Of a DNA stretch of 45,165 nt, positions 210 to 7,371 are shown piece after piece; position 1 is the first letter of the stretch, and each line of letters opens with the position of its first letter. The stretch comes from Lachnospiraceae bacterium. Its GTDB lineage: Bacteria > Bacillota > Clostridia > Lachnospirales > Lachnospiraceae. Made by a program: the position numbers and the translations under genes. A model generated the notes under the pieces. The model ran no database searches. It was not told where the DNA came from and was given only the letters and a program-made list of their open reading frames with translations. Location of the stretch: assembly GCA_024692825.1 (NCBI GenBank), contig JAILMB010000280.1:1-45165 (forward strand), given 5' to 3'.

Positions 210-1145
210 ATGGGAGACGGAGCAAAGCTTTCCACATTAGTGGAGAAATTGGAATTAAAAAACTATACATCAAAAATTAATTTAGAAGACCATGAAGTAA
301 ACATGGCAGATGTGAATCGTCCAGCCTTACAGTTGAATGGATTCTTTGATCATTTTGAAGCTGGAAGAATTCAGTTGATTGGAATGGTAGAGTGGACCTA
401 CCTTCAAAGCGAACAGTCAAAAGAGGAACGATTAGAAAGTTTTGATAAACTTTTAAGCTATGATATACCTTGTATTATTTTCTGCCGTGGATTTGTACCT
501 GACAGAAGAATTTTAAAGATTGCCAATGAACGTAATATTCCTATTTTGGGAACGGAACGCGGCACTTCAGAATTCATGGCGGAACTAATTCATTTGTTGA
601 ATTACGAATTAGCACCTATGACATCTATTCACGGCGTGTTAGTAGATGTTTATGGTGAAGGTCTGTTAATTACAGGTGAAAGTGGAATCGGTAAATCTGA
701 GGCAGCGTTAGAGTTGATTCGAAGAGGCCATCGATTGGTAGCGGATGATGTTGTGGTAATTCGACGTACTTCAAACAATACGCTTATGGGCAGTGCACCT
801 GAGGTGACAAAACATTTAATCGAACTTCGAGGAATCGGAATCATCGATGTAAAGAGTTTGTTCGGTGTTGAATGTGTAAAAGAGAATCAAAAAATTGATT
901 TTGTTATAAAGCTAGAAGATTGGAAAAAAGAAGCAGAGTACGACCGTATTGGCCTTGAGGATGAGTATATGGAAATCCTTGGAAACAAGGTGACATGCCA
1001 TAGCTTACCAATTCGTCCGGGCCGTAACTTAGCTGTTATTTGTGAAACGGCAGCAGTAAACCATCGTCAGAAAAAGATGGGATACAATGCAGCTACAGAG
1101 TTGTATCGCCGTGTCCAGAACAATATTGCGAAAGCTGATCATTAA
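210..1145 (+). CDS. hprK: HPr kinase/phosphorylase
   Basis: 311 aa; P-loop GESGIGKSEAALELI, VADDVV, RGIGIIDV and IRPGRNLAVICETAA signatures; SD gaaggaggtag. Confidence 0.95.
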   Translation: MGDGAKLSTLVEKLELKNYTSKINLEDHEVNMADVNRPALQLNGFFDHFEAGRIQLIGMVEWTYLQSEQSKEERLESFDKLLSYDIPCIIFCRGFVPDRRILKIANERNIPILGTERGTSEFMAELIHLLNYELAPMTSIHGVLVDVYGEGLLITGESGIGKSEAALELIRRGHRLVADDVVVIRRTSNNTLMGSAPEVTKHLIELRGIGIIDVKSLFGVECVKENQKIDFVIKLEDWKKEAEYDRIGLEDEYMEILGNKVTCHSLPIRPGRNLAVICETAAVNHRQKKMGYNAATELYRRVQNNIAKADH

Positions 1146-2587: not shown

Positions 2588-3493
2588 ATGAAGAAACAAA
2601 TTGAGAATCAATTAGAAAATATAATAACAGAAGGCGTAATCAAATATGATGAGCCAATGAGTGCTCATACTACATTTCGCATTGGAGGAAAGGCAGATTG
2701 TTATATCGAGCCTTCCTTCCAGGAAGTGGAGCCGTTATTTGCCTTTTTAAAACAGGAACAAATTCCATATACCCTGATTGGAAACGGTTCAAATTTATTG
2801 GTTTCTGACGAGGGAATAGAGGGTGTGACAGTTTCATTTGGAACTTCTATTGCTGAGGTTTCCTGTGAGGGAACAACTCTGAAGGCTCAGGCTGGAATTC
2901 TACTTTCCCGATTAGCCTCCTTTGCTGCCGAACACTCGCTAAAAGGATTGGAGTTTGCATCAGGAATTCCAGGAACTTTAGGCGGTGCAATTACAATGAA
3001 TGCGGGAGCTTATGGCGGTGAGATGAAAGATGTTGTGACCTATGTCACATTGTTAGAAGACGGAGAAATAAAAAGATGTCCTGCATCTGAGATGGATTTT
3101 TCTTATCGACATAGCAAGGTCTTAGAGTCAGATATCATTGTTTTGGCTGTTGAGATGGACCTTCAAGAGGGAAATCAAAAGGAAATTCTTGCGTTATCCA
3201 GGGAGTTAAATCAACGACGGGTAGATAAGCAACCTCTAAATTATCCTAGCGCAGGAAGTACTTTTAAAAGACCAGAAGGTCATTTCGCAGGTAAACTAAT
3301 TGAAGATGCGGGATTAAAAGGGTATACCGTTGGTGGAGCTCAGGTTTCTGAAAAACACAGTGGCTTTGTTATCAATATTGGCGGTGCTACTGCAAAGGAT
3401 GTCAGAGATTTAATCTCGGACGTAAAGCGAATTGTCAAAGAAAAATTTGACGTTACATTAGAACCAGAAGTTCGAATGATAGGAAGGTTTTAA
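2588..3493 (+). CDS. murB: UDP-N-acetylenolpyruvoylglucosamine reductase
   Basis: 301 aa; TTFRIGGKADCYIEP, LIGNGSNLLV, SGIPGTLGGAITMNAGAYGGEM, YPSAGSTFKRPEGHFAGKLIEDAGLKG. Confidence 0.96.
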   Translation: MKKQIENQLENIITEGVIKYDEPMSAHTTFRIGGKADCYIEPSFQEVEPLFAFLKQEQIPYTLIGNGSNLLVSDEGIEGVTVSFGTSIAEVSCEGTTLKAQAGILLSRLASFAAEHSLKGLEFASGIPGTLGGAITMNAGAYGGEMKDVVTYVTLLEDGEIKRCPASEMDFSYRHSKVLESDIIVLAVEMDLQEGNQKEILALSRELNQRRVDKQPLNYPSAGSTFKRPEGHFAGKLIEDAGLKGYTVGGAQVSEKHSGFVINIGGATAKDVRDLISDVKRIVKEKFDVTLEPEVRMIGRF

Positions 3494-3494
3494 A

Positions 3495-4373
3495 ATGAAA
3501 CTAATAATTTTAACCGGAATGTCTGGAGCCGGAAAACACACAGCCTTTAAGACCTTAGAAGATCTTGGATATAACTGTGTGGACAACTTACCTATTCCAC
3601 TGCTAAAAAGTTTTGTTGAACTGGCATGGAAAAATGAGGCAGAGACCAATAAGGTAGCAGTAGGAATTGATGTAAGAAGTGGTGAATCCATTGAAAATAT
3701 TGAGGCAACTTTAAATGAAATTGAAGCAGATGGAAAGGATGTAAGCATTATTTTTCTAGATGCAGAAGATGACGTTTTAATTGCCAGATATAAGGAAACA
3801 AGACGAAACCATCCCCTTGCTATTGGAGAAAGCCTGTATGACGGCATTATGCGAGAACGGGAACGGGTAGCCTTTTTAAAGGAACGGGCAGATTATGTCA
3901 TAGATACGACCCATCTTTTAACAAAGGATTTAAAAGCAGAACTTCGAAAAATATTCTTAGAGCATCAAAATTTCCAGAGCCTTTTTGTTACCGTTATGTC
4001 TTTTGGATATAAATATGGAATCCCACAGGATGCGGATCTGGTCTTTGATGTTCGATTTTTACCAAATCCATATTATGTTCAGGATCTACGTCCAATGACA
4101 GGAAACGATAAACCCATTCAAGACTATGTTATGAACAATGACATTGCAAAAGAGTTTAAGTTTAAGCTTATGGATATGATATCCTTTCTGATTCCCCGCT
4201 ACATTGAGGAAGGAAAAACCCAGCTGGTAATTGCTGTAGGATGTACAGGTGGAAAGCATCGTTCTGTTACAGTGGCAAATGAAATCTATCAGGAGCTACT
4301 TGGTAAGGACGGTGGATATGGACTTCGAGTGGAACACAGAGATATCGATAAAGACCGAAAGAGAGGAAAGTAA
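3495..4373 (+). CDS. rapZ: RapZ/YvcJ family nucleotide-binding protein (RNase adapter)
   Basis: 292 aa; GMSGAGKHTAFKTLEDLGYNCVDNLPIPLL, RRNHPL, FGYKYGIPQDADLVFDVRFLPNPYYV, IAVGCTGGKHRSVTVAN. Confidence 0.93.
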   Translation: MKLIILTGMSGAGKHTAFKTLEDLGYNCVDNLPIPLLKSFVELAWKNEAETNKVAVGIDVRSGESIENIEATLNEIEADGKDVSIIFLDAEDDVLIARYKETRRNHPLAIGESLYDGIMRERERVAFLKERADYVIDTTHLLTKDLKAELRKIFLEHQNFQSLFVTVMSFGYKYGIPQDADLVFDVRFLPNPYYVQDLRPMTGNDKPIQDYVMNNDIAKEFKFKLMDMISFLIPRYIEEGKTQLVIAVGCTGGKHRSVTVANEIYQELLGKDGGYGLRVEHRDIDKDRKRGK

Positions 4374-5233
4374 TGTCCTTTTCTCAGGATATAAAAAAGG
4401 AGTTATTTCCCATTATTCCAAAACCGAGGCATTGTCTGATTGCTGAACTATCGGCATTTGTTACAATTCTTGGCAGGATAGAGAATCACTGTCTTTGCAT
4501 AGAGACGGAAAATGGGGAATTGAAAAGAAAATACTTTACTTTGCTAAATAAAACGATTAGTATAAGTGAGTGTGACGATGTGCTTTCTGAAGGCATCACA
4601 AAAGAACTTTTTGAAACATTAAAAATCAAAGATTTTTGCTTGGATTTGGATGGATTATTAATTCAACAATCCTGTTGCAAAAAAGCATTTATCCGTGGCG
4701 CATTTTTATCTGCTGGATCAATCAGTGATCCAAAAAAAGGGTATCATTTTGAAATTGCGGTTTCTAATTTGAACCTGGCGAAGCAGATTCAAGGGGCCAT
4801 TGATTTTTTTGAAATTGATGCTAAAATCGTTGAACGTAAACAACAATATGTTGTATACGTGAAAGAAAGTAATCAAATTGAAGATTTACTTGCGTTGATG
4901 GGAGCGAACATTGCATATCTGAAATTTGAGAATGTTCGCATTGAAAAAGAAATGCGAAATTCAATTAATCGTCAGGTGAACTGCGAAACAGCAAATATTG
5001 GTAAAACAGTATCGGCTGCCTATCGACAATTAGAAGATATAAGGCTGATTGAGGAGAAGAGAGGCCTTTCATCGTTACCGAAGAACTTACAAGAAATAGC
5101 AATACTACGGAAAGAACATCCTGATATGGCGTTAAAAGATTTGGGGAATCTTTTAGATCCGCCTGTGGGTAAATCAGGAGTGAATCATCGGTTACGTCGT
5201 ATTGGGGAGATTGCCAAATCAATCCGCACGTAA
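4373..5233 (+). CDS. whiA: DNA-binding protein WhiA
   Basis: 286 aa; N-term SFSQDIKKEL, CCKKAFIRGAFLSAGSISDPKKGYHFE, C-terminal HTH ALKDLGNLLDPPVGKSGVNHRLRRIGEIA; its start overlaps the rapZ stop. Confidence 0.93.
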   Translation: MSFSQDIKKELFPIIPKPRHCLIAELSAFVTILGRIENHCLCIETENGELKRKYFTLLNKTISISECDDVLSEGITKELFETLKIKDFCLDLDGLLIQQSCCKKAFIRGAFLSAGSISDPKKGYHFEIAVSNLNLAKQIQGAIDFFEIDAKIVERKQQYVVYVKESNQIEDLLALMGANIAYLKFENVRIEKEMRNSINRQVNCETANIGKTVSAAYRQLEDIRLIEEKRGLSSLPKNLQEIAILRKEHPDMALKDLGNLLDPPVGKSGVNHRLRRIGEIAKSIRT

Positions 5234-5249
5234 ATTAGGAGGAACTGTT

Positions 5250-5498
5250 ATGAAGAGAGATGTTGTCATTCAGATGAACAATACTATGGAGGCAACACCA
5301 ATTGCACATTTGGTCCAACTGGCAAATCAGTTTGAAAGCCGTGTTTACTTTGAAATGGATACAAAGAGAGTAAATGCGAAGAGTATTATGGGGATGATGA
5401 GCCTGGTTTTATCTACCGGAACAACTGTTACTATTGATGCTGAGGGAAGTGATGAAGATAAGGCAATTAATGCCATGGAGAATTTTCTTACAACCTAA
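5250..5498 (+). CDS. HPr family phosphocarrier-like protein, Crh-like (catalytic His replaced by Glu)
   Basis: 82 aa from ATG 5250 with SD aggagg; MKRDVVIQMNNTMEATPIAHLVQLANQFESRVYFEMDTKRVNAKSIMGMMSLVLSTGTTVTI aligns with HPr/Crh; KSIMGMMSL Ser46 motif intact. The ORF track start at 5202 overlaps whiA and lacks a better SD. Confidence 0.9.
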   Translation: MKRDVVIQMNNTMEATPIAHLVQLANQFESRVYFEMDTKRVNAKSIMGMMSLVLSTGTTVTIDAEGSDEDKAINAMENFLTT

Positions 5499-5507
5499 GA
5501 CAATAGA

Positions 5508-6404
5508 GTGAAACGTATGGAGAAGAAATTACTATTTATTTATAATCCTCATTCAGGTAAAGGTACCATTAAACAAAACCTTTCCGATATTATGGATTGC
5601 TTAATTAAAGCAAATTTTGAAGTCACAATTTATGCGACACAGGCTCAGGGTGATGCTGTAGTGAAGTGTCGTGATGAAGCCCAACATTATGACCGAATCG
5701 TTTGTTCCGGCGGAGATGGAACTTTAGATGAAGTGGTGACAGGGGTAATGGAATCTGGTCATCATGTACCGATTGGCTATATTCCAGCTGGAAGCACCAA
5801 TGATTTTGGTAATTCTTTGGGCATTAACAAAGAAATGCTTTCTGCGGCGAAGATTGCAGCCGGGGAGCATTCTTTTTTGTGTGATGTAGGTCAGTTTGGG
5901 GACGACTATTTTGTATATGTGGCAGCCTTTGGAATTTTTACAGAAGTGTCCTACGCGACAGATCAGAATCTGAAAAATATGTTAGGTCACGCAGCCTATA
6001 TTCTTGAAGGAGTAAAACAGCTTTGGGATATTCCTTCCTTCCGAATGCTAGTAGAGCACGACGGGAATATATTCTACGATGAATTTATTTATGGAATGGT
6101 GACAAATACCATGTCTGTCGGTGGATTTAAAGGAATTATTCCGGGAAATATCGAATTAAATGATGGTCTGTTTGAGGTGACTTTAATTCGAACTCCTAAG
6201 AACCCAATCGAGTTAAATGAGATTCTCGCTTTCTTAACGGGAATAGCAAAGGAAACAGACTTAGTGTATTCCTTTAAAACAAACCAGCTGAAATTGACAA
6301 GTAATGAAAAAGTAGCCTGGACATTAGATGGTGAATATGGTGGGGAACAGGAATGCGTCCTAATCAAAAATATACATGAAGGCATGGAAATCATGGTTGA
6401 ATAG
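5508..6404 (+). CDS. Diacylglycerol/lipid kinase family protein (YegS/DagK-like)
   Basis: YNPHSGKG, GGDGTLDEVVTGVM, GYIPAGSTNDFGNSLGI motifs. Start may be GTG 5508 or ATG 5517. Confidence 0.9.
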   Translation: MKRMEKKLLFIYNPHSGKGTIKQNLSDIMDCLIKANFEVTIYATQAQGDAVVKCRDEAQHYDRIVCSGGDGTLDEVVTGVMESGHHVPIGYIPAGSTNDFGNSLGINKEMLSAAKIAAGEHSFLCDVGQFGDDYFVYVAAFGIFTEVSYATDQNLKNMLGHAAYILEGVKQLWDIPSFRMLVEHDGNIFYDEFIYGMVTNTMSVGGFKGIIPGNIELNDGLFEVTLIRTPKNPIELNEILAFLTGIAKETDLVYSFKTNQLKLTSNEKVAWTLDGEYGGEQECVLIKNIHEGMEIMVE

Positions 6405-6507: not shown

Positions 6508-7371
6508 ATGTTAGTATCTGCAAAAGAAATGTTAGACAAAGCAAAAGCAGGACATTATGCTGTTGGACAGTTCAACATCAACAACCTTGAGTGGACAAAA
6601 GCTGTTTTGCTTACTGCTGAAGAATGCAAGTCACCAGTTATCTTAGGTGTATCTGAAGGTGCTGGAAAGTACATGACAGGATTTAAGACTGTTGCAGCTA
6701 TGGTTAAGGCTATGGATGAGACTTTAGGAATTACTGTTCCTGTAGCTCTTCACTTAGATCATGGTACATACGAAGGAACAAAGGCTTGTATCGAAGCAGG
6801 CTTTACATCAGTTATGTTTGATGGTTCTTCTTATGATATCAACGAAAATGTTGAAAAGACAAAAGAGTTGGTTGAACTTTCTCATAAGAACGGAATCTCT
6901 ATCGAAGCTGAAGTTGGTTCAATCGGTGGAGAAGAAGATGGCGTAGTTGGAATGGGTGAATGTGCAGATCCAGATGAATGTAAGATGGTTGCTGATCTTG
7001 GCGTTGATATGCTTGCTGCTGGTATTGGTAACATTCATGGTGTATATCCTGAAAACTGGGCTGGTCTTTCATTTGAGACATTAGATGCTATTCAGCAGAA
7101 GACAGGAACAATGCCTTTAGTACTTCATGGTGGTACAGGTATTCCTGATGACATGATCGCTAAGGCTATTTCTCTTGGTGTATCAAAGATTAATGTTAAT
7201 ACTGAATGTCAGTTGGTATTTGCAGATGCTACAAGAAAATATATTGAAGCTGGTAAGGATCAGCAGGGTAAGGGATTTGATCCTAGAAAACTCCTTGCAC
7301 CTGGTACTGAAGCTATCAAAGAAAAAGTAAAAGAAAAGATGGAACTTTTCGGTTCTGTTGGAAAAGCTTAA
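6508..7371 (+). CDS. fba: Class II fructose-1,6-bisphosphate aldolase
   Basis: 287 aa; FNINNLEWTKAVL, HLDHGTYEGTKACIEAGFTSVMFDGS, EAEVGSIGGEEDGV, LHGGTGIPDDMIAKAISLGVSKINVNTE. Confidence 0.96.
   Translation: MLVSAKEMLDKAKAGHYAVGQFNINNLEWTKAVLLTAEECKSPVILGVSEGAGKYMTGFKTVAAMVKAMDETLGITVPVALHLDHGTYEGTKACIEAGFTSVMFDGSSYDINENVEKTKELVELSHKNGISIEAEVGSIGGEEDGVVGMGECADPDECKMVADLGVDMLAAGIGNIHGVYPENWAGLSFETLDAIQQKTGTMPLVLHGGTGIPDDMIAKAISLGVSKINVNTECQLVFADATRKYIEAGKDQQGKGFDPRKLLAPGTEAIKEKVKEKMELFGSVGKA

Follow-up and report, generated by a model that had tools for sequence, protein, structure and literature searches.

The gene at positions 5250–5498 of the window (the whole stretch of 45,165 nucleotides analysed here, from a Lachnospiraceae bacterium) likely encodes a Crh-type, regulation-only HPr that is modified by HPr kinase/phosphorylase (HprK), forms one half of a divided HPr and, in most Lachnospiraceae, probably works with a partner other than classical CcpA. 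The Bacillus model has a single HPr as the bearer of both signals, so that PTS transport competes with HprK signalling for one molecule and CcpA reads the outcome. In Lachnospiraceae the two HPr functions appear, as far as sequences can tell, to be reciprocally divided between paralogs. The observations behind this reading concern the residues of the protein, its synteny and distribution, the reciprocal loss of sites and the lack of a recognisable CcpA.

In this part of the window, hprK is followed by an aminopeptidase-like gene, murB, rapZ, whiA, the Crh-type gene, a lipid kinase gene and an fba-like gene, with the following features:

210–1145, forward strand: hprK, HPr kinase/phosphorylase (TIGR00679, 373 bits against a cut-off of 240; PF07475/PF02603; open reading frame), the presumed modifier of Ser45
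2588–3493, forward strand: murB-like gene (open reading frame; its identity in the window rests on sequence family resemblance)
3495–4373, forward strand: rapZ/yvcJ (NF003828, 358 bits), with the P-loop GAGKHT, not GAGKST
4373–5233, forward strand: whiA, the direct upstream neighbour (TIGR00647, 254.8 bits)
5237–5242, forward strand: Shine-Dalgarno AGGAGG of the Crh-type gene, read in the sequence, 7 nt before the ATG
5250–5498, forward strand: Crh-type HPr gene, 82 aa; Glu14 is HPr position 15, Thr16 position 17 and Ser45 position 46
5289–5291, forward strand: codon GAG (Glu14) at the catalytic His15 position of HPr (sequence and alignment)
5382–5384, forward strand: codon AGT (Ser45) at the position of the HprK site Ser46 (sequence and alignment)
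5508–6404, forward strand: YegS/DagK-type lipid kinase, the downstream neighbour (PF00781, TIGR00147; start 5508 GTG or 5517 ATG)
6508–7371, forward strand: fructose-bisphosphate aldolase-like gene (fba), two genes downstream (open reading frame; assigned by eye)

The Crh-type gene, which begins 17 nt beyond the whiA stop, is genuine: it has a ribosome-binding site, matches the HPr family and is under purifying selection (dN/dS about 0.07–0.15 against relatives with estimable dS). It translates to MKRDVVIQMNNTMEATPIAHLVQLANQFESRVYFEMDTKRVNAKSIMGMMSLVLSTGTTVTIDAEGSDEDKAINAMENFLTT, followed by the stop. Profile scores above the curated cut-offs (Pfam PF00381, 89.5 bits against 23; TIGR01003, 68.3 against 47.9) together with an HPr fold place the product in the HPr family. 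The fold is that of the AF2 model, with a mean pLDDT of 91 that falls to about 72 over residues 11–20, the former active centre, and all Foldseek matches of this model are HPr and Crh (TM 0.82–0.90). The best NCBIfam model, PRK13782/NF010354 (HPr family phosphocarrier protein), gives 91.7 bits and does not reach its curated cut-off of 123. Searched either as a single sequence or as a 46-sequence profile, the protein has its best PDB relatives in B. subtilis Crh, in keeping with the Crh-like character proposed by the first-pass annotation.

Residue equivalences come from aligning the protein without gaps to Crh and HPr of B. subtilis, and they agree with the initial reading of Glu at His15, Thr at Arg17 and a preserved Ser46 site. 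Glu14 takes the place of the His or Gln at position 15 and Thr16 that of Arg17, whereas B. subtilis Crh has Gln and Arg at these two positions. The catalytic His15 with Arg17 that marks a PTS phosphocarrier is thus missing and a residue that cannot be phosphorylated stands in its place; with this centre gone the protein should, as had been suggested, not serve as a His15 phosphocarrier and would carry no PTS phosphate. Ser46 and the surrounding HprK recognition motif are kept (VNAKSIMGMMSL, invariant in relatives), and NAKSIMGMM does not vary in a 46-row alignment of relatives. The loss of Arg17 might nevertheless weaken recognition by HprK too.

With B. subtilis Crh (yvcM; 1mo1, 1zvv) the protein shares the HPr fold, a replaced His15, a conserved NAKSIMG, a gene position after whiA and hprK in the same genome. 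In B. subtilis crh lies directly after whiA (PMC10714963), and here whiA directly precedes the Crh-type gene both in the window and in 79/79 relatives with enough upstream sequence. Because of the same gene position and of Crh being the best PDB match, the protein corresponds, in Lachnospirales, to Crh of Bacillus. Crh itself is a known kind of protein, and Crh-like proteins have already been named in Clostridia, as Ccel_0806 of Clostridium cellulolyticum (PMC3656788) and a Crh homologue of Thermoanaerobacterium saccharolyticum (PMC3526391); the accessible portions of these two papers differ from the present case in that they assign CcpA homologues, and they neither discuss position 15 nor describe a reciprocal loss in the PTS HPr. 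Another relative close in sequence and fold, the HPr of Thermoanaerobacter tengcongensis (3le1), differs in having both His15 and Ser46 and is an undivided HPr.

The hprK gene was rightly placed in the same cluster at the outset: it is found some 4.1 kb upstream, in the same orientation, and its product has the Walker A motif GESGIGKS and the signature RGIGIIDVKSLFG. A murB homologue is also found upstream in relatives and belongs to the conserved gene order, and the fba-like gene is found at the same place in 31/76 of them. FBP, the substrate of fba, is an effector of HprK. Separately, the Walker A motif of RapZ has His for Ser, with GKHT in six sampled loci and GKHS, GKNT, GKVS or GKIT in other relatives, and from these variants the RapZ P-loop adjoining whiA is, by its sequence, eroding in several lineages.

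In a set of 80 related loci, Glu occupies position 15 in 71, Gly and Asp in 4 each and Gln in 1, and all 80 have Ser46. A check across the family that the first-pass annotation had proposed gave Glu in 12, Asp in 2, Gln in 1 and Ala in 1 of the 16 Lachnospiraceae genomes with a whiA-linked HPr; 22 other Lachnospirales genomes have Glu (18), Asp (2), Ile (1) and Val (1), with Ser46 in 22/22. No whiA-linked HPr with His15 was found within Lachnospirales (80 loci, 16 family and 22 order genomes). Glu15 is the usual state here, and the window gene is part of a widespread lineage and no oddity; the idea that Glu15 is peculiar to its own genome was rejected. Thr17 as in the window is limited to a smaller clade (15/80 loci), and the whiA-linked protein is absent from 5/21 Lachnospiraceae genomes. 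Outside Lachnospirales an HPr follows whiA in 5/29 whiA-bearing genomes, with His (2), Gln (1), Tyr (1) or Asn (1) at position 15. Since B. subtilis Crh pairs in a tree (83 columns, weakly resolved) with a whiA-linked HPr that has His15 and comes from another order, B. subtilis Crh and the Lachnospirales protein may have lost His15 independently.

This range of residues bears on a further suggestion, that Glu imitates phospho-His15 and gives the protein a permanent HPr-His-P likeness towards an EII, a PRD regulator or glycerol kinase. Position 15 is Glu or Asp in 75/80 loci, 14/16 family and 20/22 order genomes, but acidic residues that begin a helix are also accounted for by helix capping, and Gly, Ala, Gln, Ile and Val all occur at the site in proteins whose Ser46 motif is intact. 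The nearest Gly15 clade (L020–L023) otherwise has the motif variant of the window. Moreover, recognition of phospho-His normally makes use of Arg17 as well, which is Thr in the Crh-type protein. According to the available part of one study (PMC3526391), HPr phosphorylated at both sites does not bind CcpA, so such mimicry would oppose the CcpA role that had been proposed alongside it. We consider the mimic very improbable, and as an essential feature of the protein it was rejected on the variety at position 15. Even less can be said for a decaying HPr duplicate without present function, to which we give next to no chance: both active-centre residues are lost, but decay is contradicted by conservation, that is, a dN/dS of about 0.1, an invariant Ser46 region and long retention across the order, and was rejected. 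Of the 22 order genomes with a whiA-linked HPr, 10 give no hit for the N-terminal domain of EI, as would suit a function separate from the PTS.

All HPr-family matches were read with their neighbours in 20 Lachnospiraceae genomes of different genera and in the genome of the window. HPr linked to ptsI has His15 and Arg17 in 20/20 cases and Ser46 in only 1/20, the other 19 having Lys, Arg or Ala, and the whiA-linked HPr has Ser46 in 16/16 and His15 in 0/16. This complementary pattern is complete in 13 of the 14 genomes with both types. Fisher tests of ptsI- against whiA-linked residues gave P of 1e-10 and 2e-9 with genomes counted as independent, which they are not. A tree of 119 HPr sequences joins the Ser46-less ptsI-linked HPr in a clade of 19 rows (support 100/100, one row with Ser); this points to a single loss of Ser46 in the ptsI-linked HPr of the family, so that few independent events would lie behind the tests. 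The 83 columns of this tree are too few for deep branching, and the number of His15 losses is not settled by it. Ser46 loss in the PTS HPr was not borne out as an order-wide feature, given that ptsI-linked HPr outside Lachnospiraceae mostly has Ser, in a motif that is often altered.

The genome of the window follows the family pattern. The search for a second HPr with His15, also proposed at the outset, recovered C207 beside ptsI and C18 beside a ybbR-like gene. The ptsI-linked one (L001, G000:C207, 1495–1752) keeps His15 and has Arg for Ser46 (motif DAKRILGVMS), a loss that was absent from the first-pass annotation and makes the split reciprocal; the HPr of B. subtilis, in contrast, keeps Ser46. 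In the literature searched, which largely lacked subscription papers, we found no description of a reciprocal Ser46/His15 loss, nor of HprK and Crh being retained without a recognisable CcpA, and this is weak evidence of novelty.

B. subtilis Crh has CcpA as its partner, and the window protein had likewise been cast as a CcpA cofactor, a role that the genomes do not bear out. An hprK that passes the cut-off and retains its P-loop is present in 20/20 Lachnospiraceae genomes, but no CcpA above the curated cut-off (TIGR01481) was found in these 20 or in the genome of the window, an assembly 83% complete in which the absence is weak; B. subtilis and Lactococcus controls pass. Class relatives that carry the docking signature (L315, L318 and L320) fall short of this strict cut-off as well. 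For that reason an alignment of LacI proteins to B. megaterium CcpA was examined at Tyr295, a docking residue, at Asp296 and at Arg303, and this residue test carries more weight than the cut-off. Arg303/304 of CcpA is the key contact to Ser46-P (PMC4591507). Tyr295 and Arg303 occurred together in 0/9 alignable LacI proteins, nearly the whole sets of six family genomes, and two others, G040 (97% complete) and G058 (100%), have no LacI-family protein at E<=0.001 yet keep both hprK and the whiA-linked protein. One LacI protein of a further family genome (L287 in G048) does have Tyr295, Asp296 and Arg303, as do LacI proteins of three genomes outside Lachnospirales at the docking signature. These comparisons suggest that most Lachnospiraceae are unlikely to use CcpA as the partner and that a CcpA-like one may persist in some members, e.g. 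G048.

These results weigh on the textbook account, in which Crh phosphorylated at Ser46 by HprK serves CcpA as co-repressor in carbon catabolite repression, here through a divergent CcpA missed by the models. Position 17, altered in this protein, lies near the CcpA interface, which speaks against that account together with the two genomes devoid of LacI proteins and the missing docking residues. On its side are the match to Bacillus Crh in sequence, post-whiA position and hprK linkage, the single G048 protein, and the Crh-like protein modelled with CcpA homologues for C. cellulolyticum in the accessible portion of that paper (PMC3656788). On balance we regard the textbook account as unlikely.

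In the divided arrangement that we favour, Ser45 (Ser46 of HPr) would very likely be phosphorylated and dephosphorylated by the HprK encoded in the cluster. This enzyme would sense ATP, FBP and phosphate as in other Bacillota, the state of Ser46 would report the glycolytic state, and the phospho-form (or the free form) would bind a partner. The reader of phospho-Ser is probably not classical CcpA, a metabolic enzyme or another regulator being likelier. We hold as a tentative possibility that the protein mainly controls such an enzyme, e.g. methylglyoxal synthase, with or without transcriptional effects, by analogy with B. subtilis, where MgsA is regulated by Crh (PMC10714963, PMC9631020). Such control would not require CcpA, and the fba-like neighbour acts at the same triose/hexose phosphate node.

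Without Ser46, the ptsI-linked HPr should no longer give HprK a means of braking the PTS, and the HprK signal would be expected to run via the whiA-linked protein and the other HPr-like proteins that keep Ser46. On the wider proposal, that the HPr switch of Lachnospiraceae is split and HprK signalling, uncoupled from PTS flux at HPr, passes via a regulation-only HPr to a non-CcpA effector, our judgement is evenly divided. If the sites are indeed on separate proteins and no recognisable CcpA exists, textbook catabolite repression is not transferable to Lachnospiraceae, and in these major gut and rumen fermenters the targets of HprK become a directly testable question.

The presence of ybbR-linked and short HPr types means that the split spans several paralogs, of which the ybbR-linked HPr may still join both sites. 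The latter, found in 15 genomes, has His15 and Ser46, with His15 lost in two (L224 of G040 and L227 of G051, where it is replaced by Asp or Lys). Short HPr-like proteins of about 75 aa, with the His15 loop deleted and the Ser46 motif IDAKSIMGIFS kept, occur in 20/21 family genomes (e.g. L004 at 1495–1722 on the reverse strand, L005 and L006) and are possible further substrates of HprK. One short type, near-universal in Lachnospiraceae, is divergent between thiI-like and mtaB-like genes, and the mtaB-linked proteins form a single clade in the tree of 119 sequences. Finally, in L229 (G006) and L230 (G034) an HPr-like protein has His-Lys-Asn for His-Ala-Arg with the Ser46 motif intact, and in both genomes its gene is followed by those for a Lys/Ala-rich, histone-H1-like protein and a CarD-like protein.
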